Source: an uncultured Erysipelotrichaceae bacterium (lineage in GTDB: Bacteria; Bacillota_I; Bacilli_A; Erysipelotrichales; Erysipelotrichaceae). From it: a stretch of DNA of 12,738 nucleotides. The notes below the pieces were generated by a model, which ran no database searches, had not been told where the DNA came from, and saw nothing but the letters and a program-made list of their open reading frames with translations. The DNA lies in the NCBI GenBank assembly GCA_902795905.1, contig CADBMY010000087.1, forward strand, positions 1-12,738, written 5' to 3'. Within the stretch, counting starts at the first letter, position 1. Each line of letters opens with the position of its first letter. Below, piece after piece: positions 1 through 7,769 of this stretch. The position numbers and the translations under genes are program-made.

Positions 1-829
1 ACTGCTGGGCAAGGATGGCAGTTGTGCTTCCGGCAGGCATTGCGGTCATGATCACGGAGATCGCAAGGATCATCGGATCGACCGGCAGGAACTTCAGTAT
101 CGCAAGAACGATACCCGGGAAGACGACAAGACGGATCAGCGTAAAGTACAGGATCGCCCTGTCTGCCAGCTTACCGGCATGGATCTCGCTGAGGATGCCG
201 CCGATGATCAGCATGCTTAAGGCACTGACACATCTGCCAAGTGAAGACAGCGTGCCGGTCACGGCTGAAGGAAGTTTTACACCGGTCACAAGGATCACAA
301 AGCCGATGCCTACCGCAACGATGCACGGGTGTGTAAGCATCTTGATGATCTTCTGCTTCAGACTGCCGCTTTCGCCCGCATAGAGAGCCAGGCCCAGCGT
401 CCACATCGTCAGCCGTATCGGTATCTGATATACAGACGTATACATGGTGCCGATACTGCCGTAGATCGTCTCCACGACCGGGATACCGATGAACGAGGAA
501 TTCGATACGATCATCCCGTAGCGCATGACGACCGAACGGGCCTTGTCAAATCTTCCGAAGAGAAGCGGTCCCAGCACATAGGATGCGGTCTGTACGGCGG
601 CGGAGATGATCACGGCAGTTACGGCGTTGTGCAGCAGTTCACTGCTCATCTCAATACCGCCGGTAAAGGAAGCAATGATATTGGCAGGCAGGATCACGTT
701 GATCAGCAGTGACGAGAGTCCCTTCTGCTGTTCAGCCGTGATGACCTTCAGCTTCCTTACCGCATATCCGCACAGCATGAGCAGGAACAGCTGCATCTGC
801 AGGCGGATCATACTGTTGAATAACGTCAT
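1..829 (-). CDS. AEC-family (auxin efflux carrier-like) permease, 3' end cut by window edge
   Basis: Integral membrane transporter of the AEC family (PF03547). Bacterial members carry malate, lactate, malonate or other small organic acids. The frame runs from ATG at 829 through 276 codons to the left edge without a stop, against a usual length near 300-320, so only the last part is missing. The translation is almost all hydrophobic helices broken by short polar loops. Family-like motifs are LLINVILPANIIASF near residue 42, NSSFIGIPVVETIYG near residue 110, and MPAGSTTAILAQQ at the visible end. The start lies two bases after the TAA of the upstream dehydrogenase gene, with an AGGA in that gene's last codons as ribosome site, so the two are cotranscribed and probably coupled. 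I infer that the substrate is a 2-hydroxy- or 2-oxoacid handled by the partner enzyme. Family assignment is firm; substrate and direction are not. Confidence 0.9.
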   Translation of the reverse strand, partial: MTLFNSMIRLQMQLFLLMLCGYAVRKLKVITAEQQKGLSSLLINVILPANIIASFTGGIEMSSELLHNAVTAVIISAAVQTASYVLGPLLFGRFDKARSVVMRYGMIVSNSSFIGIPVVETIYGSIGTMYTSVYQIPIRLTMWTLGLALYAGESGSLKQKIIKMLTHPCIVAVGIGFVILVTGVKLPSAVTGTLSSLGRCVSALSMLIIGGILSEIHAGKLADRAILYFTLIRLVVFPGIVLAILKFLPVDPMILAISVIMTAMPAGSTTAILAQQ

Positions 830-831
830 GG

Positions 832-1830
832 TTAAATGATCCTGAAAGGAGCTTCACCGGTATCACACAGGCTTTTCGCTTCTTTTAACGCTATACGGAT
901 CTGGTTCTCTCTGGCTCTGACCGTGTTGGCACCGATATGCGGTGTGATCAGGATCCTGTCCTTCAGGGCGTACAGTTCCTTCAGGGTATCGTTGGTGATT
1001 TCTTCCACCTTTCTGCCGAAGATCTGCTTCTCATGTTCGACAACATCGGCGCCAAAGGCACGGATACGGCCTTCCTTCAGGGCATCGACCACAGCCTGCA
1101 GGTCTACTAACTCCCCTCTTGCGGCATTGATCAGGATCAGATCCTTCTGCGCATGTGAGAGCACCTCGGCGTTGATCATGCGGTCGTTCTGCCCGTAGAT
1201 ATAGGCCAGATGAATACTGACGATATCGCAGGTGCGGAAGATCTCCTCCATCGTTGTATACGTCAGGACAGCTTTGTTTTCTTCCTTCTCAAACTTGTCG
1301 AAGCCGTAGACTTCCGCGCCCAGTGCCTTGTACAGGGAAGCCGTGACCATGCCGATATGACCGGTGCCGAGGATCCCTACCTTACAGTCCCTGATCTCCT
1401 TCGGATATTCCGGGATCTGCGTAAAGTCCAGCGCTTCCGCCTTTGCGGCATAAGCTGAGAAATCCCGGTTCAGGGCCATCGCCATGCCTACTGCCAGCTC
1501 GGCGATCGCATTGGGCGAATAAGCCTCAATGTTGGCGATCATCACATTGTGTGCCTTGGCAGCGTCAAGATCGATCTGGTTGTATCCGGTCATCTTGATG
1601 ATAAAGACACGGATGTGATTCTCTTCAAGCATCGCAAAGTATGCATCGTTGAGCACGGTGGTGTTGTTTCCGCTGATCACGGCATCACAGCCGCCCTTAT
1701 ATATCTCGGGATCACGGATATCATGATCCATCGGATACATCGTGATCTCATAGCCGAATTCTTCGGTATTGATCTGCCTGTACATACCGAACTCTTTCTC
1801 TCTTACCCCAACAGCAATGACTTTAAACAT
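832..1830 (-). CDS. D-isomer-specific 2-hydroxyacid dehydrogenase (D-lactate dehydrogenase-like)
   Basis: NAD-dependent enzyme of about 332 residues, the normal length for D-lactate / D-2-hydroxyisocaproate dehydrogenases, interconverting a 2-oxoacid and a D-2-hydroxyacid. The Rossmann glycine motif GTGHIG is at 155-160, with the NAD-selecting acidic residue D178 at the end of the next strand (YGFD). Catalytic Arg is R238 (NAARGELVD), the acidic partner is probably E265, and the catalytic His is H298 (TPHIG). I chose the ATG at 1830 because GGAGGT lies 8 bases upstream and MFKVIAVGVRE matches the family N-terminus; an in-frame ATG 16 codons earlier would start upstream of the predicted transcription start. 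It is the first gene of an operon with the AEC permease and has a sigma-54 promoter in front. Lactate, phenyllactate or branched-chain hydroxyacids are all possible substrates. Confidence 0.92.
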   Translation of the reverse strand: MFKVIAVGVREKEFGMYRQINTEEFGYEITMYPMDHDIRDPEIYKGGCDAVISGNNTTVLNDAYFAMLEENHIRVFIIKMTGYNQIDLDAAKAHNVMIANIEAYSPNAIAELAVGMAMALNRDFSAYAAKAEALDFTQIPEYPKEIRDCKVGILGTGHIGMVTASLYKALGAEVYGFDKFEKEENKAVLTYTTMEEIFRTCDIVSIHLAYIYGQNDRMINAEVLSHAQKDLILINAARGELVDLQAVVDALKEGRIRAFGADVVEHEKQIFGRKVEEITNDTLKELYALKDRILITPHIGANTVRARENQIRIALKEAKSLCDTGEAPFRII

Positions 1831-1846
1831 CTGTTTACCTCCATTC

Positions 1847-1860
1847 GGAACGTTTGTTCC
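1847..1860 (-). promoter_or_regulatory. Small hairpin at the 5' end of the dehydrogenase leader
   Basis: Inverted repeat GGAAC-N4-GTTCC at the predicted start of the dehydrogenase mRNA, about +4 to +17, just ahead of the GGAGGT ribosome site. It could be an mRNA-end stabiliser or an operator. Its flank TTTGTTCCC (1853-1861) is the same 9-mer as in the inverted repeat before tag. The arms are only 5 bp, so it could be chance. Confidence 0.3.
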
Positions 1861-1873
1861 CACATATGTATAT

Positions 1874-1889
1874 TGCAAAATACGTGCCT
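1874..1889 (-). promoter_or_regulatory. Sigma-54 (-24/-12) promoter of the dehydrogenase-permease operon
   Basis: Read on the minus strand the sequence is AGGCACG-TATT-TTGCA, against the sigma-54 consensus TGGCACG-N4-TTGCW. The invariant GG (1888-1887) and GC (1876-1875) are exactly ten bases apart. This places transcription start near 1863, about 33 bases before the dehydrogenase ATG. A divergent sigma-54 activator gene and rpoN are the next genes on the other side, which strongly supports the call. I see no better sigma-70 promoter for this operon. Confidence 0.85.
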
Positions 1890-1904
1890 GTTTATTTCGG
1901 AGAA

Positions 1905-1936
1905 TTTACACATTTATCCGTACGATGTCATGTAAA
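1905..1936. promoter_or_regulatory. Candidate activator site (UAS) between the divergent genes
   Basis: Imperfect dyad TTTACA (1905-1910) ... TGTAAA (1931-1936), with a CGTACG palindrome (1919-1924) between the arms. It lies about 42-73 bases upstream of the predicted sigma-54 start and just in front of the regulator gene. That makes it a candidate binding site for the Fis-type HTH of the adjacent activator, with possible autoregulation. Sigma-54 activator sites are often further upstream, so the assignment is tentative. Confidence 0.35.
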
Positions 1937-1956
1937 ATAGTGACGGGAGTAACATT

Positions 1957-3855
1957 ATGAGTATCAGCAGGATCGTCTTTGTCTTTGAAGGACCTTATCA
2001 TTTAAAAAGCATTCCGAACTTTTTAAAACAGATCGGAAGAGATTATCCCGTTGTCGGAAACTATGCCAACAACGAGGAAATGTTTTCGTATGTGCAGGAG
2101 ATGCTCAGGAAGGGTGCCGAGATCTTCGTGTCAGCCGGCGGCTATTACGATTATCTGACCGAGCATCTGGAGGTGCCGATCATCAACCTGAAGCGAAGTT
2201 ATGCGACGATCGCTCTGGTTGCCAACAAAGCCAGGGAGATGTCGGACCATGTCGCCTTCATTGCCAGAAAGGGCGTTCTGTATGCGTCTGCGCTGCGTTA
2301 TAAAGAAGAGTTCAAGGATCCGATCATCCTCGAGACCTTTGCAAATGATGAGGAACTGCATGCCAAATTACAGAGCCTGAAGGAACGCGGCGTGGATACC
2401 CTGATCGTCGGTTCCCGCGGTTCGCAGATCGCACCGCAGTACGGCTTCAACTGCCTGACCGTGCCGTTTGAAGATCACGACGTCATGGAAGCGGTCAGAG
2501 AAGCTGAACGTATCCTCAAGTATCTGGATATCACCAGAAAGACATCCGATCTGTTAAGACTGATCCAGAACAGTGTCAACGAGGGTATCGCAGCTGTTAA
2601 CAATAACAATGTCATTACCGAGATCAACAACTACGGACTGAACATGCTGAACTGTTCCCGCAAGGAGATCCAGGGTCTGCCGATCACTGAGACTTTACTG
2701 GCGCCGGTAGCCGAACTGGATGCGTTTAAGCAGAGATCCGGATCGATCGCGGAACTGGTCACGATCAAGGAACAGATGATCTCGGTGACCCTGATCCCCG
2801 TAGGTGATGATGACAACGAACAGATGACGGTCATTACGTTTACCTCCGTGCAGCAGCTGCAGCGCAGTGAGCGCAGACTGCAGGAGAAGCTGAACAAGGG
2901 CCACAGAGCTGTCTATTCGTTCAAGGATATCATCGGCTCCAGTCCTGCCCTGCAGGCATCCATAGACCATGCCAGACGCTTTGCCAGAGTCGACAGTTCC
3001 GTACTGATCACAGCCGAGACAGGCTGCGGCAAGGAGATGTTTGCCCAGAGTATCCACAATGCCTCAAGACGAAGAAACGGACCGTTCGTGGTCGTCAACT
3101 GTGCGGCCTTACCGGAGAATCTGCTCGAGAGTTCACTGTTCGGATATGAAAAAGGTGCCTTTACCGGCGCTGCCAGAGAAGGCCGTCAGGGTTCCTTCCT
3201 GTCGGCCAACGGAGGCACGATCTTCCTCGATGAAGTCAGTGAGATGCCTTTAAGTCTGCAGGCAAGATTCCTGCGTGTGCTGCAGGAGAAGGAAATTGTA
3301 CCGTTAGGCTCCGATGAAGTCATCTCTGTCGATGTACGTGTGCTGGCGGCCACCAACCGGAACATGCCGGAGCTGATCGAAGCCGGCTCCTTCCGCAGAG
3401 ATCTCTACTATCGTCTGGCAGTGCTGCAGCTGGAGATACCGAATCTCAATGAGCGCAAGGAAGATATACCGGCTCTGGTCAGACACTTCATGTACAGCAG
3501 AGCCAAGGATCTTGACCTGCACAGTCCCGAGATCAGCGATGAAGCCCTTGCCTACCTGCAGACCCTGCACTATTCCGGCAATATCCGGCAGTTACAGAAT
3601 ATTACCGAGAGATTCCTGGTCCTGCATAACGATGTCGGTCCCATCTCGCTGGATCTTGTCAGGGCGGTCACCGGCAGTGAATTCGCGGCGGCCAGGAGCA
3701 CACCAACAGTGAAGATCCACTCCCGCAGAGATGAAAAGGAAGATATCCTGGAAGCCCTGCGGCAGTGTGACAACAACCGTGTGAAAACGGCTGAGATGCT
3801 GGGGATCAGCACCGTCACCCTCTGGCGCAAGTTAAAAAAATACGGTCTTGCCTGA
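1957..3855 (+). CDS. PrpR-type sigma-54-dependent transcriptional activator
   Basis: Bacterial enhancer-binding protein of 632 residues that remodels sigma-54 RNA polymerase by ATP hydrolysis. Domains in order: PrpR_N-like ligand-binding region (about 1-190, with VSAGGYYDYL near 50 where the family has a GG motif), PAS-like domain (about 200-300), a short coiled linker (QQLQRSERRLQEKLNK), AAA+ domain (about 320-550), and C-terminal Fis-type HTH (about 590-632, KTAEMLGISTVTLWRKL). Walker A is AETGCGKE at 353-360, the sigma-54 contact loop GAFTGA at 400-405, Walker B GTIFLDE at 420-426, and arginine-finger region FRRDLYYRL. There is no receiver domain, so activation is by ligand rather than phosphorylation. 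The start at 1957 follows GGGAG by 7 bases. It is divergent from the dehydrogenase-permease operon, its likely target. No propionate genes are nearby, so the PrpR ligand 2-methylcitrate should not be assumed. Confidence 0.93.
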   Translation: MSISRIVFVFEGPYHLKSIPNFLKQIGRDYPVVGNYANNEEMFSYVQEMLRKGAEIFVSAGGYYDYLTEHLEVPIINLKRSYATIALVANKAREMSDHVAFIARKGVLYASALRYKEEFKDPIILETFANDEELHAKLQSLKERGVDTLIVGSRGSQIAPQYGFNCLTVPFEDHDVMEAVREAERILKYLDITRKTSDLLRLIQNSVNEGIAAVNNNNVITEINNYGLNMLNCSRKEIQGLPITETLLAPVAELDAFKQRSGSIAELVTIKEQMISVTLIPVGDDDNEQMTVITFTSVQQLQRSERRLQEKLNKGHRAVYSFKDIIGSSPALQASIDHARRFARVDSSVLITAETGCGKEMFAQSIHNASRRRNGPFVVVNCAALPENLLESSLFGYEKGAFTGAAREGRQGSFLSANGGTIFLDEVSEMPLSLQARFLRVLQEKEIVPLGSDEVISVDVRVLAATNRNMPELIEAGSFRRDLYYRLAVLQLEIPNLNERKEDIPALVRHFMYSRAKDLDLHSPEISDEALAYLQTLHYSGNIRQLQNITERFLVLHNDVGPISLDLVRAVTGSEFAAARSTPTVKIHSRRDEKEDILEALRQCDNNRVKTAEMLGISTVTLWRKLKKYGLA

Positions 3856-3876
3856 TCCAGGCATGACCGTTTTTTC
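3842..3876. terminator. Bidirectional intrinsic terminator between the activator gene and rpoN
   Basis: Hairpin ACGGTC-T-TGCCTG-ATC-CAGGCA-T-GACCGT, fully paired but for one T-T mismatch, followed by a run of T residues on the plus strand. On the minus strand the same hairpin is followed by seven T residues (the A-run at 3834-3840), so it can stop both converging transcripts. The left arm lies within the last codons of the activator gene. Confidence 0.9.
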
Positions 3877-5141
3877 TATCTCCTCTTTCTCACCGCAGTA
3901 TCTCCTATGCCTGCTCTGATACGGTACTTGGTGACCGTACGTCTGGCACAGGTGATACCCTTAGCCTTCAGTATTTCCGTCAGTTTTGCGTCACTGAGGG
4001 GTGCGTCCTTATCCTCTTCGGCAATGATCTCACGGATCATCCGGATGATATCCGTACGTACGGGCTGATCCTGCTTGCCCTGGGTAAAGAAGTATTTTAA
4101 CGGGTAAGTGCCCCACTCACATTCCAGATACTTGCCGTTCACAGCCCGGGAAATGCTGGAGACATTGACATGCAGGGCATCGGCGGCATCCTGCATGCGC
4201 AGACTCTTCAGGTTGCCTTCGCCCAGCATGAAGAAGGCCTGCTGTCTTTCCAGGATATATTCACCAAGACCGGTGATCAGTTTCTCCCTGCCCTCGATCG
4301 ATCTCTGCAGCAGGTTGATCCTCTGTATCTTCTCCCTGACGTAGCTCTTTTCTTCCTTTGCGAAACTCTTATACAGTGTGCGGTATTCCTCACGGATGCG
4401 GATACCGGGGAAAAGCCTCCGGTTAAAGCGTATCTTAAAGCCTTCTTCGTCTCTTTCCACGTAGATATCCGGGACGATGTAGATACTGCGGTCATTGGCA
4501 CGGAAAGCACTGCCTGGTCTTGGCTCAAGTGTGCGCACATAGCTCAGGTATGCCGAGATCTCCTCTTCGCTCAGGCCCAGGCTTTCACGCAGGATACGTG
4601 TCTTTCCCTCCGCCAGAAGCAATAATCCCTCTTTCACAAACCGATAGAGCTTCGGATCTTCCACACCCTGTCGTTCCATCTGGATACAGAGGCACTTCTG
4701 CATGTCTGCGGCGCCGACACCGGCCGGTTCCAGGCTTTGGATCAGAGCTGTCATCTCCTGTACCGTCTTCTGCGATACCCCGAGTTTCTCCGCTGTCTCT
4801 GCAGGATCATGTTTCAGATATCCGTTATCATCAAGAAGCGAGCAGAGATACTCGAGGGTCCTTCTCTCCCTGGAACTAAGCTCACGCGTGACCTGGGCCA
4901 GCAGATGATCACTTAACGTCTCTTCATTACCGGGATCCATCCAGTATTCTTCCGTACCTTCGGTATCGGTATGCCCATAGCTGTAATGATCATCCTCGAC
5001 CAGTTCCAGCACCGGATTCTCCTCGGCCTCCTTATGCAGAAAAGTCTCCAGCTCACTGCCTGTCAGCTGCAGGATCATGTTCGTCTGGATCACTCTCGTG
5101 GATACCGTCTGGATCTGTTTTACCGTCAGTCTCTGACTCAT
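3876..5141 (-). CDS. rpoN: RNA polymerase sigma-54 factor
   Basis: Sigma-54 of 421 residues, shorter than the 477 of the Escherichia coli protein and lacking much of the acidic region II. Region I is the Gln/Leu-rich N-terminus (VKQIQTVSTRVIQTNMILQL, then ELETFLHKEAEENPVLEL), which contacts the activator. A core-binding domain follows. The -12 binding HTH is near 317-355 (VNVSSISRAVNGKYL...TYPLKYFF). The RpoN box recognising the -24 element is ARRTVTKYR at 399-407. The ATG overlaps the tag TGA as ATGA, with GGAGAGAAG as ribosome site inside the end of tag, so translation is coupled. It converges on the activator gene across a shared terminator. A sigma-54 gene beside its activator and a matching promoter suggests a narrow, dedicated regulon. 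Confidence 0.96.
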   Translation of the reverse strand: MSQRLTVKQIQTVSTRVIQTNMILQLTGSELETFLHKEAEENPVLELVEDDHYSYGHTDTEGTEEYWMDPGNEETLSDHLLAQVTRELSSRERRTLEYLCSLLDDNGYLKHDPAETAEKLGVSQKTVQEMTALIQSLEPAGVGAADMQKCLCIQMERQGVEDPKLYRFVKEGLLLLAEGKTRILRESLGLSEEEISAYLSYVRTLEPRPGSAFRANDRSIYIVPDIYVERDEEGFKIRFNRRLFPGIRIREEYRTLYKSFAKEEKSYVREKIQRINLLQRSIEGREKLITGLGEYILERQQAFFMLGEGNLKSLRMQDAADALHVNVSSISRAVNGKYLECEWGTYPLKYFFTQGKQDQPVRTDIIRMIREIIAEEDKDAPLSDAKLTEILKAKGITCARRTVTKYRIRAGIGDTAVRKRR

Positions 5142-5743
5142 TTCTTCTCTCCGTACGGACGTTTGTACACGACCGGATATTTCGTGATGATCCGGGTATA
5201 GCAGTCACACTGTTCACGGTGGTCATTGACCATCCCGCAGGCCTGCATGTAGGAGTATACCGTGACCGGTCCGAGGTACTTGAAACCGTGCTTCTTCAGC
5301 TGCTTTGCGATCTTCTCTGAGAGGGCGTTGGAGACCGGCATATGCCCTTTTTCGTGTCCCCGGTAACAGATGGTCATCCCCTCGGTAAAAGCCCAGAGAA
5401 AGGCGTCAAACGAGCCGTATTCCTGTACTACACGGTCATAGCACTTGGCATTGTGTATCATTGCCCTGATCTTGGGCAGGGAGCGGATCATCCCCGGTGT
5501 ATCCAGGATACGCTGTATATCGGCATCGGTATAGTTCATGACTATCTTCCAGTCATAATTATCAAAGCATGCCCGGAAGATCTCCCGTTTCTTCATCATC
5601 AGATCCCAGCTTAACCCGCACTGCATGCACTCCAGAAACAGGTACTCAAAAAGCAGTCTGTCATCATGAGCAGGTGTACCCCACTCCGTATCATGATAGA
5701 CCTTCATCGCTTCACTGCTGTATCTCCATCCGCAGTCGTTCAT
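5138..5743 (-). CDS. tag: DNA-3-methyladenine glycosylase I
   Basis: Base-excision repair enzyme of about 201 residues that removes 3-methyladenine from DNA. It aligns with E. coli Tag from its first residues: NDCGW (zinc ligand C4), YHDTEWG (zinc ligand H17), FEYLFLECMQCGLSW (catalytic-site E38, base-stacking W46), and C-terminal YMQACGMVNDH...C with the remaining His and Cys ligands. I start it at the ATG at 5743 because homology begins there; an ATG 20 codons upstream adds an unrelated hydrophobic stretch and lies within the upstream inverted repeat. No ribosome site is visible before 5743, and a TATACT sits only 6 bases upstream, so the message may be leaderless. It ends by ATGA overlap into rpoN. 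No alkylation-response genes are nearby. Confidence 0.93.
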   Translation of the reverse strand: MNDCGWRYSSEAMKVYHDTEWGTPAHDDRLLFEYLFLECMQCGLSWDLMMKKREIFRACFDNYDWKIVMNYTDADIQRILDTPGMIRSLPKIRAMIHNAKCYDRVVQEYGSFDAFLWAFTEGMTICYRGHEKGHMPVSNALSEKIAKQLKKHGFKYLGPVTVYSYMQACGMVNDHREQCDCYTRIITKYPVVYKRPYGEKK

Positions 5744-5749
5744 AGCATT

Positions 5750-5755
5750 AGTATA
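5750..5755 (-). promoter_or_regulatory. Candidate -10 element for tag-rpoN (possible leaderless start)
   Basis: TATACT on the minus strand, 6 bases before the tag ATG. If used, transcription would begin at or beside the start codon. No convincing -35 hexamer lies 16-18 bases upstream; that position is occupied by one arm of the 13-bp inverted repeat (5772-5784), which fits a regulated promoter. Confidence 0.4.
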
Positions 5756-5771
5756 TACAATCAGGATTACG

Positions 5772-5816
5772 GTTAGGGAACAAAACACTTCCAAAAAGCA
5801 CAATTTGTTCCCTAAC
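5772..5816. repeat. Perfect 13-bp inverted repeat with 19-base spacer upstream of tag
   Basis: Arms GTTAGGGAACAAA (5772-5784) and TTTGTTCCCTAAC (5804-5816) match 13 of 13, with spacer 5785-5803. It lies between the upstream operon's terminator and the tag promoter region. There is no T-tract after it on either strand, so it is not a standard terminator. It could be a paired-site operator for tag-rpoN, a short mobile-element remnant, or an RNA hairpin. On the minus strand the distal arm also begins a GG-N10-GC arrangement (GG 5811-5810, GC 5799-5798) resembling a weak sigma-54 promoter. Confidence 0.75.
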
Positions 5817-5824
5817 TGTTTTCA

Positions 5825-5852
5825 AAATAAAGATATACCCGAAGGTATACCT
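5825..5852 (-). terminator. UUCG-tetraloop terminator after the pyrophosphatase operon
   Basis: On the minus strand the stem AGGTATACC / GGTATATCT (9 pairs including one G-U) closes a TTCG loop of the stable C(UUCG)G type and is followed by TTATTTT. It begins 8 bases after the stop codon of the 82-residue gene and would end that operon before tag. Confidence 0.8.
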
Positions 5853-5859
5853 GTTAAGT

Positions 5860-6108
5860 TTACAAAGGATATCTCTTCAGATACTCTTCGATCACACGCT
5901 CATCATTTTCCGGGATATCTTCTTTCAAGCCAAGAATGATCTCATACTCCTCTTCTGATAAGTCGGGATTATACTTCAAGACGATCTTTCTCATCTCATC
6001 ATCAGTCATGTTTAATTCACGGAAAGATGCGATCATATGCCTGACTGTATTCCAGAACCTGCGCAGATCAGCCACCTTTGCGCCATATCTGGTCAGATAG
6101 TAATCCAT
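5860..6108 (-). CDS. Small uncharacterised protein, 82 residues
   Basis: I do not recognise a family. The protein is short, soluble, strongly charged and predicted helical. It has an Arg/Lys-rich first half (DLRRFWNTVRHMIASFRELN) and an acidic second half (LSEEEYEIILGLKEDIPENDE), ending in RVIEEYLKRYPL; it has no cysteines, signal peptide or membrane segment. The ATG lies 11 bases after the pyrophosphatase stop, with AGGAGA spanning that stop as ribosome site, so it is the last gene of the pyrophosphatase transcript and is followed at once by a strong terminator. The tight spacing and good ribosome site make it a real gene. A role with the pyrophosphatase is conjecture from position only. Confidence 0.8.
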   Translation of the reverse strand: MDYYLTRYGAKVADLRRFWNTVRHMIASFRELNMTDDEMRKIVLKYNPDLSEEEYEIILGLKEDIPENDERVIEEYLKRYPL

Positions 6109-6119
6109 CAGCTGTTCTC

Positions 6120-7769
6120 CTATCTCTCGATCACTCTGGTCAAAGCCGGCAGGATCTGACTCTTCCGTGAGAAGATCCCCTTCTGCAGATCATGCCCTAC
6201 TTCACTGCTGTCCGGGAAAGCTTCAAGACACTTGCCTTTCTTCTCTCCTGCCGCAAAGAAGACACTGCCTTCATCTGCTACGGAAGTAAATGCCGCAACG
6301 ATCAGGTCCAGATCTTTCTTTTCGACAAGACCTTCCAGAGTCCTCTGTATTTCTCTTTCCCGGCCGATCAGACTGCGTACAGAGGGCACCATGCACTGGG
6401 AGATCATGGTCCGGCATCTGCCGATCTCGTAGTACTTGATATCCTGTACGACCATCTCCCGTATGCTCTGACGCATGTTGGCGGCAGAAGCCGTGAACAG
6501 TTCCTTGCCGAACGTTTCGATATCAAGATCTGCCAGGGCAGCCAGGATATTTGCCGTATCGATATCCTTCTGCGTCGTTGTCGGTGACTGGAAGATCAGC
6601 GTATCACTGAGCACAGCCCCAAGCATCAGCCCCGCCAGTTCCCTGGGAATCGGGATATTGTTTTCACGGTACATCGTCGCAATGATCGTGGCCGTGGAAC
6701 CGACGATCTCGTTGCGGAAGGACACCGGCTGCGTTGTCGCAAAGTCATTGATCCGGTGGTGGTCCACGACCTCCAGGATCTGTGCTTTCTCGACAGCTTT
6801 CACGGATTGTGAGAACTCGTTATGATCGACCAGGATGACCTTCTTGTTCCGGTATTCCATGATGTGGGCAGGTGTAACATAACCAACAAGATGGTCATCC
6901 TCATCCACCACCGGATAACTCCTGAACCTGGTGCGGGTGATCTTCTCCCCGGCCTCCTCTGCCAATTCATCTTCCCTGAACATGACCGGCTTCCGGCTCA
7001 TCACCAGTTCGACCCGCGGTGCGAAGAAGATGTAGCGGGAAGTATTCATCGTACCATGGCCGGAGATGATGATCGGGCAGTGATGCTGCGCTGCAGTACT
7101 GATCACATCTTCTTCAATCTTTTCGCTCCAGACCGTGATGATCATGCCGGCACCCTTTTCGATCAGAGCCTTCTGGGCCTTCGGGTCATTGCCGATGATG
7201 ACGATGCGGTCCTTGATCTCGTAGTCATCGATACCGGTATCGGTCAGAGCGATGATCGAGACCTTGCCGTTCAGATGCAGTTCGGGATCGTCATAGATGA
7301 TCTTGCCGCTGACGGTGCGGGCGATCTCCTGCACACCGGTATGCCGCAATAACTCAATACCTACAGCCGTATCACCGAGCGAGAGTCTGGCCAGGTCACT
7401 GCGTGAGACAAAGCCGATGACTTTATCATTGTCATCGGTGACCGCAAAGCTCGAGCGTTCCTGCTCGTGCATGCGGGCTACGGCCTCGTATACCGTGGCG
7501 GTATACGGGATGGAGACGGGAGGATCGAGTTCGATCTCCTTTAACTGCTTGCGGGCATCTTCCAGCAGGAGCGGTTCTTCGTAGCCGAATCTCTTTAACA
7601 GGTAGGATGTCTCGTAGCTGAGTGCGCCGAGTCTGCAGGGAATCGCCTTGATACCCTGCATACGTTTGAATAATGCATAGGCTATGGCCGATACGACGGA
7701 GTCGGTATCGGGATGCCTGTGACCGGTAATATAAACAGGTTCCTGTGATATTTTTGTTTGAGTGAACAT
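6120..7769 (-). CDS. ppaC: Manganese-dependent inorganic pyrophosphatase with regulatory CBS and DRTGG domains
   Basis: Family II (DHH) pyrophosphatase of 549 residues, the length of the nucleotide-regulated CBS-PPase class. It hydrolyses PPi to two phosphates in the cytoplasm. The catalytic DHH domain is split by the regulatory insert: GHRHPDTDS at 16-24 supplies metal ligands H17/D21/D23, then CBS1 (about 75-130), DRTGG (about 150-245) and CBS2 (about 255-306). The DHH domain then resumes with VDHNE (314-318), DHH (336-338) and SDT (388-390). The DHHA2 domain ends with the substrate-binding motif SRKSQ (534-538), where the family usually has SRKKQ. In studied members AMP/ADP inhibit and ATP or diadenosine polyphosphates activate through the CBS pair; that is family knowledge. 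The ATG at 7769 has AGAGGA upstream and its own promoter; the 82-residue gene follows. Confidence 0.95.
   Translation of the reverse strand: MFTQTKISQEPVYITGHRHPDTDSVVSAIAYALFKRMQGIKAIPCRLGALSYETSYLLKRFGYEEPLLLEDARKQLKEIELDPPVSIPYTATVYEAVARMHEQERSSFAVTDDNDKVIGFVSRSDLARLSLGDTAVGIELLRHTGVQEIARTVSGKIIYDDPELHLNGKVSIIALTDTGIDDYEIKDRIVIIGNDPKAQKALIEKGAGMIITVWSEKIEEDVISTAAQHHCPIIISGHGTMNTSRYIFFAPRVELVMSRKPVMFREDELAEEAGEKITRTRFRSYPVVDEDDHLVGYVTPAHIMEYRNKKVILVDHNEFSQSVKAVEKAQILEVVDHHRINDFATTQPVSFRNEIVGSTATIIATMYRENNIPIPRELAGLMLGAVLSDTLIFQSPTTTQKDIDTANILAALADLDIETFGKELFTASAANMRQSIREMVVQDIKYYEIGRCRTMISQCMVPSVRSLIGREREIQRTLEGLVEKKDLDLIVAAFTSVADEGSVFFAAGEKKGKCLEAFPDSSEVGHDLQKGIFSRKSQILPALTRVIER

Follow-up and report, generated by a model that had tools for sequence, protein, structure and literature searches.

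How does a bacterium come to carry a sigma-54 factor beside a single activator and a single promoter? Sigma-54 polymerases form a closed complex at -24/-12 promoters that is opened in an ATP-driven step by a GAFTGA-containing activator, and one global sigma-54 factor is usually common to many such activators. A contig of 12,738 nucleotides from an uncultured gut bacterium of the Erysipelotrichaceae (CADBMY010000087.1, or C87, analyzed in full and referred to here as the window) carries the sigma-54 gene rpoN tail-to-tail with one activator gene, itself divergent from a dehydrogenase-permease operon preceded by a -24/-12 promoter-like element. The source assembly (GCA_902795905.1) comprises 1.83 Mb in 353 contigs and is 85.8% complete. 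The window was compared with 70 genomes of its genus and 315 genomes of its order, Erysipelotrichales; G000 denotes the window's own genome and G013 a close relative, whose activator is 98% identical. With a probability of roughly 0.77, we read the locus as a self-contained one-sigma/one-activator cassette that drives the dehydrogenase-permease operon, in an order where sigma-54 is mostly inherited as such cassettes.

A sigma-54 factor, its activator and a matching candidate promoter in one contig

Three activator domains exceed their Pfam cut-offs, namely PrpR_N, Sigma54_activat (PF00158, 226.8 bits) and HTH_8, while a PAS-like stretch was assigned by eye, without a Pfam match. The AAA+ domain aligns to solved sigma-54 activators and retains the GAFTGA motif (encoded at 3154-3171), which, together with the DNA-binding helix-turn-helix, makes the protein a bacterial enhancer-binding protein by domain content, with promoter activation as its predicted function. 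The adjoining rpoN encodes the AID, core-binding and DNA-binding domains of sigma-54 (PF00309, PF04963 and PF04552, all over cut-off) and an RpoN box, ARRTVTKYR (encoded at 3921-3947), that aligns to ARRTVAKYR of a solved sigma-54. Three closer assignments of the activator were rejected. It scores 340 bits against the PrpR equivalog model TIGR02329 (cut-off 499.2) and 371.8 bits against the PrdR model of NCBIfam (cut-off 795), and its PrpR_N and HTH_8 domains, without any Pfam match related to the phosphotransferase system (PTS), do not make a LevR-type circuit.

Upstream of the dehydrogenase, the element AGGCACGTATTTTGCA (1889-1874) departs at one position from the -24/-12 consensus, TGGCACG-N4-TTGCW, in which GG and GC are invariant; within CAGGCACGTATTTTGCA, GG falls at 1888-1887 and GC at 1876-1875. 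The bare GG-N10-GC pattern was discarded as evidence because it is not enriched in the window (99 matches versus 92 expected). The extended core GGCACGN4TTGCA occurs once versus 0.01 expected. G013 retains the element, and the single difference falls within the N4 spacer. These results bear out the original prediction, which had described a near-consensus sigma-54 promoter ahead of the operon, a divergent GAFTGA activator and rpoN as the next gene, and which had made conservation of the -24/-12 element in close relatives its touchstone.

Pairing of rpoN with activators across Erysipelotrichales

The rpoN cut-off was passed by 55 of the 315 order genomes. Leaving out partial or weak cases (G028, G048, G142, G278 and G096, as well as additional weak matches in G064 and G121), and counting the two-piece matches of G008 and G204 (contig C44) as one copy each, 50 genomes with 67 rpoN copies were kept. 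An activator domain lies within 10 kb of 62 of the 67 copies, each a separate activator, at a median distance of 1189 bp; four of the five unpaired copies sit on 3-4 kb contigs or at most 1.6 kb from a contig end, and the fifth is that of G138. One-sigma/one-activator packaging is the usual layout in Erysipelotrichales, which reverses, for this order, the expectation that a lone activator next to rpoN is uncommon; elsewhere that expectation may hold.

Copy numbers follow the same pattern. In 45 of 50 genomes there are as many activator genes as rpoN genes (one pair in 35, two in nine and three in one), in a count that leaves out four GAFTGA-less paralogues and five weak PF00158 matches (62-74 bits) dropped uninspected as presumed Clp-type proteins. 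The unequal genomes (rpoN, activators) are G242 (2, 4), G122 (5, 6), G131 (1, 2), G116 (2, 1) and G138 (1, 0). Thirteen genomes carry two to five rpoN copies, and 28 of the 30 copies in them are paired with an activator. They include G050, a single-contig genome with two copies, and G122 (6% estimated contamination), whose five copies are spread over contigs of 187-1283 kb, with two on the same contig. Copies within one genome are 25-38% identical. For none of the 27 copies in the 12 multi-copy genomes whose pairs are complete is the closest rpoN another copy from that genome, so recent duplication is not their source.

Distances among rpoN proteins are correlated with those among their activators (Mantel rho 0.49; largest of 999 permutations 0.22) over 59 pairs from 64 rpoN of at least 330 aa and 65 activators of at least 500 aa, and the 51 long activators alone give 0.41 versus a largest permuted value of 0.27. 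In multi-rpoN genomes, 19 of 27 copies (12 expected) fit their true partner better than any other activator of that genome. The correlation supports shared inheritance of rpoN and activator, short of proof of strict linkage. All six long activators scanned with Pfam contain PRD, and five of the six EIIA-man over cut-off, as in LevR-type proteins; the remaining long activators are classed as LevR-like by their length and similarity. In G140, the long activator beside rpoN (L148:10356-13118) has GSYTDS in place of GAFTGA and no GAFTGA-like motif.

Taken alone, the window might reflect nothing more than conventional sigma-54 regulation in a small genome, with a global rpoN lying by chance near one of few activators and other targets left unassembled or served by weaker promoters. 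The assembly is incomplete, the site scan described below was limited to two mismatches, and the available part of one paper names Lactobacillus plantarum and Chlamydia trachomatis as species with one activator (PMC3162934). A global factor is nevertheless an unlikely explanation, as it would not be expected to adjoin an activator in 62 of 67 cases, to match activator numbers in 45 of 50 genomes, or to have 28 of 30 copies paired where several coexist.

Beyond the order, searches of class and phylum outgroups returned nothing stronger than weak matches, and 75 other loci were therefore used for comparison. Among the best 80 of 557 activator relatives in named genomes, five belong to this group and all five have rpoN adjacent. 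No rpoN (0/75) was found in the other loci, labelled for example Clostridia, Bacillaceae, Spirochaetales and Desulfobacterales and including unplaced Bacillota, with an rpoN profile derived from the order itself and run without a positive control from other groups, in loci centred on activators rather than on rpoN (50 of at least 11 kb, 25 shorter). In the same set of 80, the closest activator, 98% identical, is from Solobacterium sp. UBA3691, and the next two records are labelled sheep duodenum and goat jejunum.

Promoter-like sites of the other cassettes

Across 1.02 Mb of 72 loci, 87 sites score at least 14.7 bits, and 70 of these flank an activator or rpoN gene; the score weights were set from the -24/-12 consensus, and expected numbers derive from the same loci. 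A site lies at most 350 bp downstream of, or at most 450 bp divergent from, 46 of 65 activators (0.45 expected). Nine of 66 rpoN genes have a -24/-12 element directly upstream (0.14 expected; Table 1), which suggests autoactivation of rpoN through the neighbouring activator. The accessible text of a 2025 survey infers rpoN autoregulation for several classes, Erysipelotrichia included (PMC12316311).

Tandem -24/-12 elements spaced 56-75 bp apart occur directly 3' of long activator genes (Table 1), and at locus L025 a 67-bp unit is repeated approximately six times within the array.

Conservation of the pair within the genus

Nine of the 70 genus genomes contain rpoN, and two more contain fragments; in G008 the gene is split between two frames (L020:9467-10519), through sequencing error or decay. 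The genus has 23 PF00158 matches at E≤1e-20, and of the 22 inspected for the motif, 11 have GAFTGA or GAYTGA and 11 do not. Nine of the 11 GAFTGA/GAYTGA activators are in the nine rpoN genomes, one per genome; G077 and G009, assemblies 92% and 74% complete in which rpoN was not found, hold the remaining two. The 11 GAFTGA-less proteins either belong to genomes that lack rpoN or are encoded on a different contig from rpoN. These relatives (L002:1081-2955, on contig C14 of G000, and ten more), in a genus where most genomes are without rpoN, have perhaps switched to sigma-70.

A decaying cassette, with the operon now read from a sigma-70 promoter, would agree with the restriction of rpoN to nine of 70 genomes and fragments in two, with the split gene of G008, with the 11 of 23 PF00158 proteins without GAFTGA, and with a sigma-70-like match upstream of the dehydrogenase. 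Such a relic is highly improbable here: domains and motifs are intact in both the window and G013, the only change to the -24/-12 element is in its spacer, and sigma-70-like matches in region 700-6200 do not exceed shuffled sequence (six versus 5.3 expected).

PrpR-type activators at 51% identity or more are tail-to-tail with rpoN in all six genomes that have them, as the comparison of synteny proposed in the original prediction revealed, and the surroundings of the pair vary. Its neighbours are tag and a DHH phosphatase in G013, a Tex-like gene in G072 and G008, and butyrate-kinase-like and 3-hydroxyisobutyrate-dehydrogenase-like genes in G064 (the last three named by eye). The gene order around the pair thus changes, as, of the genus loci compared, just G000 and G013 have tag next to rpoN, and this would suit a rearrangement that set rpoN beside the activator without any special link between them. 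Given that the pair persists in six of six genomes despite these differing surroundings, such a chance neighbourhood is scarcely credible.

Predicted target operons of the cassette

The original prediction held the dehydrogenase operon to be perhaps the only sigma-54 target of the organism and called for a genome-wide scan for GG-N10-GC promoters and GAFTGA proteins. The window's rpoN is the sole rpoN detected in the assembly, and its activator the sole GAFTGA protein. Three PF00158 matches were found: this activator, a ClpB/C-like protein recognized by eye, and the relative on contig C14, which was rejected as a second sigma-54 activator, being PrpR-like but without GAFTGA. A scan of the assembly for TGGCACGN4TTGCW with up to two mismatches returned 98 matches versus 232 with a reversed control. 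Because matches are fewer than in the control, the scan gives no sign of a broad regulon, and position alone discriminates. Forty-eight matches keep GG and GC, and a six-frame test places 47 of these inside open reading frames (ORFs) of 164-600 aa; the only one between genes is the window's site. By this test the site is covered solely by ORFs of 128 and 63 aa antisense to the dehydrogenase, and the 128-aa ORF is taken as spurious and the site treated as intergenic. Site-covering ORFs shorter than 300 aa number 13; ten were scanned with Pfam, of which seven match and three do not. A dedicated sigma-54 module is well supported by these counts, and "only", whether applied to target, rpoN or activator, is provisional because ~14% of the genome is missing.

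The suggestion of a single target fares less well among relatives. In G013, a second site, TGGCACGATAATTGCA (L018:13892-13907), matches all consensus positions and lies behind the permease, where it precedes an operon for an RraA-like aldolase and a CitMHS-like transporter; by G013 coordinates, this operon starts approximately 200 bp past the window's left end. The RraA/CitMHS operon is divergent from the activator in G072, G008 and G064, behind TGGCATGATATTTGCA (scoring the same as the window's site) or TGGCACGGTTTTTGCA (scoring higher). Four relatives thus carry it behind an equal or better site, and the stretches from G072, G008 and G064 (19, 19 and 11.7 kb) contain no dehydrogenase match. 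CitMHS relatives at E≤1e-50 occur in six of the 70 genus genomes: four at 80-100% identity, each accompanied by the rpoN-activator pair in its genome, and two at 44% or less (G018 and G071), with no rpoN found in G071. The window's assembly itself yielded just one 29% match over 141 residues and otherwise no CitMHS gene, presumably owing to an assembly gap. Since relatives have the RraA/CitMHS operon behind the site and no dehydrogenase match, this operon has the appearance of the core target, with the dehydrogenase and permease genes as an accessory addition; by this comparison of sequences, those two genes are probably not the sole target, nor the original one.

Proposed mechanism and its weighing

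In the proposed mechanism, RpoN-RNA polymerase would wait as a closed complex at the -24/-12 promoter ahead of the dehydrogenase and permease genes, and the divergent activator would bind TTACA/TGTAA half-sites within the 67 bp that separate its own gene from the -24 element. This gap contains TTACA-N20-TGTAA, and G013 retains both half-sites with one spacer base changed. Four upstream regions together hold 12 half-sites versus 2.65 expected, a number reached in none of 2000 resamplings, for a motif picked by eye after inspecting the regions; these four remain of six regions once near-duplicates are removed, and the long G072 gap contributed just its final 185 bp. The G008 region on its own has two half-sites. 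Because the activator has PrpR_N, its ligand may be carboxylic-acid-like, and binding would lead it to open the promoter with ATP and its GAFTGA loop. In G013, it would also open the promoter of the adjoining aldolase/citrate-type transporter operon. The CitMHS and AEC proteins may import a 2-oxo or hydroxy carboxylate and export a product; the RraA-type aldolase would cleave the imported acid, and the dehydrogenase would reduce the product of cleavage. In Erysipelotrichales, sigma-54 would then be mostly inherited as one-sigma/one-activator cassettes and not as a global sigma factor.

Several observations weigh against this reading. Nineteen of 65 activators have no flanking site above threshold, approximately 14% of the window's genome is absent from the assembly, and the dehydrogenase is also preceded by the weak sigma-70-like match (1931-1903, minus strand, nine of 12 positions). 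G138 has an rpoN without an activator, and there are extra activators in G122 (one), G131 (one) and G242 (two). G077 (L082) and G009 (L065) carry a GAFTGA or GAYTGA activator with no rpoN found, in incomplete assemblies. The nearest relatives by rpoN and by activator coincide in only 29 of 59 pairs, eight of 27 copies fit another activator of the same genome equally well or better, and the distance correlation may derive in part from whole-genome descent.

From the pattern as a whole, we infer that the cassettes are portable one-sigma/one-activator units. A further step is tentative and, in our view, doubtful: sigma-54 could be local throughout Erysipelotrichales, each RpoN insulated with its own activator and promoters, so that five cassettes would amount to five orthogonal systems that spread horizontally as units. 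The nearly one-to-one pairing, with divergent copies per genome, provides natural tests of sigma-54/activator specificity and of the conversion of a global sigma factor into a local one, and it supplies compact regulatory modules ready for use.

Other features of the locus

The dehydrogenase matches 2-Hacid_dh and 2-Hacid_dh_C over cut-off, and its top NCBIfam models are D-lactate dehydrogenases, with scores under their cut-offs. Its start codon is the ATG at 1830, preceded by a Shine-Dalgarno sequence; TTG 1878 was rejected because the gene would then extend into the -24/-12 promoter. Transcription is predicted to start near 1863, 33 nt ahead of the ATG, and the predicted leader contains the palindrome GAACAAACGTTC, whose GAAC-N4-GTTC core is kept in G013 with changes confined to R/Y positions, and which we take to be similar to the Gram-positive LexA box. 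The permease is 98% identical to a 306-aa G013 protein that matches PF03547. On the far side of the cassette, rpoN is probably co-transcribed with tag, judging from the ATGA overlap of the tag stop and the rpoN start. A perfect inverted repeat, TTAGGGAACAAA (5773-5784) and TTTGTTCCCTAA (5804-5815), lies upstream of tag-rpoN.

Table 1. Features of the window and -24/-12 elements at related loci (L numbers)
Feature	Position	Strand	Basis
AEC-family permease, 276 codons present, truncated at contig end; second gene of predicted sigma-54 operon	1..829	-	G013 comparison
D-2-hydroxyacid dehydrogenase, first gene of predicted sigma-54 operon	832..1830	-	PF02826 138.7 bits, PF00389 53 bits
Dehydrogenase Shine-Dalgarno, GGAGG	1838..1842	-	Sequence
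Palindrome GAACAAACGTTC in predicted dehydrogenase leader	1848..1859	-	1 match versus 0.04 expected
-24/-12 (sigma-54) promoter-like element AGGCACGTATTTTGCA	1874..1889	-	Consensus match, kept in G013
Candidate activator-binding site, TTACA-N20-TGTAA	1906..1935	-	Half-sites kept in G013
Sigma-54 activator: PrpR_N, PAS-like stretch, AAA+ with GAFTGA, HTH_8	1957..3855	+	Pfam, alignment
rpoN (sigma-54), 421 aa	3876..5141	-	Pfam, TIGR02395 363.8 bits (cut-off 277.35)
tag-type DNA-3-methyladenine glycosylase	5138..5743	-	PF03352 222.1 bits over 5138-5740
-24/-12 elements preceding rpoN	L022:8389, L025:8288, L026:10352, L138:1742, L143:8075, L145:7721, L152:8027, L173:7282, L179:7315		
Tandem -24/-12 elements	L025:5080-5502 (G050), L026:13153-13505, L022:5427-5510, L023:14241-14324, L173:10196-10333, L145:4864-4935, L152:10809-10899		

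Comparison with known systems

The individual elements of the cassette are known; their order-wide pairing in combination with multi-rpoN genomes is unreported in the open-licence literature that we found, where no account of either was encountered. The pattern may have escaped notice because the 2025 survey, in its accessible text, describes Erysipelotrichia as tending to lack activators (PMC12316311).

Of the systems described, the sigma-54/mannose PTS circuit of L. plantarum (Stevens 2010, as cited in PMC3162934) is similar in having one activator, a linked target transporter and carbon-source regulation. Sigma-54 is linked directly to the mannose PTS in L. plantarum and Pediococcus, and Firmicute PTS activators are described as LevR/CelR-like (PMC3162934, available part). 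The window's activator differs in having PrpR_N and a hydroxyacid/aldolase operon as its predicted target, and several cassettes per genome are found here and not described in that part of the paper (PMC3162934).

In Clostridiales, according to the portion of a regulon study available to us, 170 of 263 activators control one operon, the activator usually adjoins its target, and PrpR_N sensors occur (PMC6615313). The cassette resembles these one-operon regulons in placing a PrpR_N activator beside its predicted target operon. Unlike the 57 Clostridiales, which have a single sigL each for 1-35 activators (PMC6615313), rpoN here adjoins the activator and can be multiplied.

The PrpR propionate activator shares the combination of PrpR_N, AAA+ and Fis-type helix-turn-helix domains, but the window's activator is below the TIGR02329 cut-off, and no propionate genes were recognized at the locus. 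The accessible survey text gives rpoN as single in most organisms, with several copies in ~5.04% and up to four in Rhodobacter sphaeroides (PMC12316311). Like R. sphaeroides, multi-rpoN Erysipelotrichales have several, apparently specialized sigma-54 paralogues per cell; unlike in R. sphaeroides, nearly every rpoN copy here adjoins an activator, and the copies, 25-38% identical, all have their nearest relatives in other genomes.

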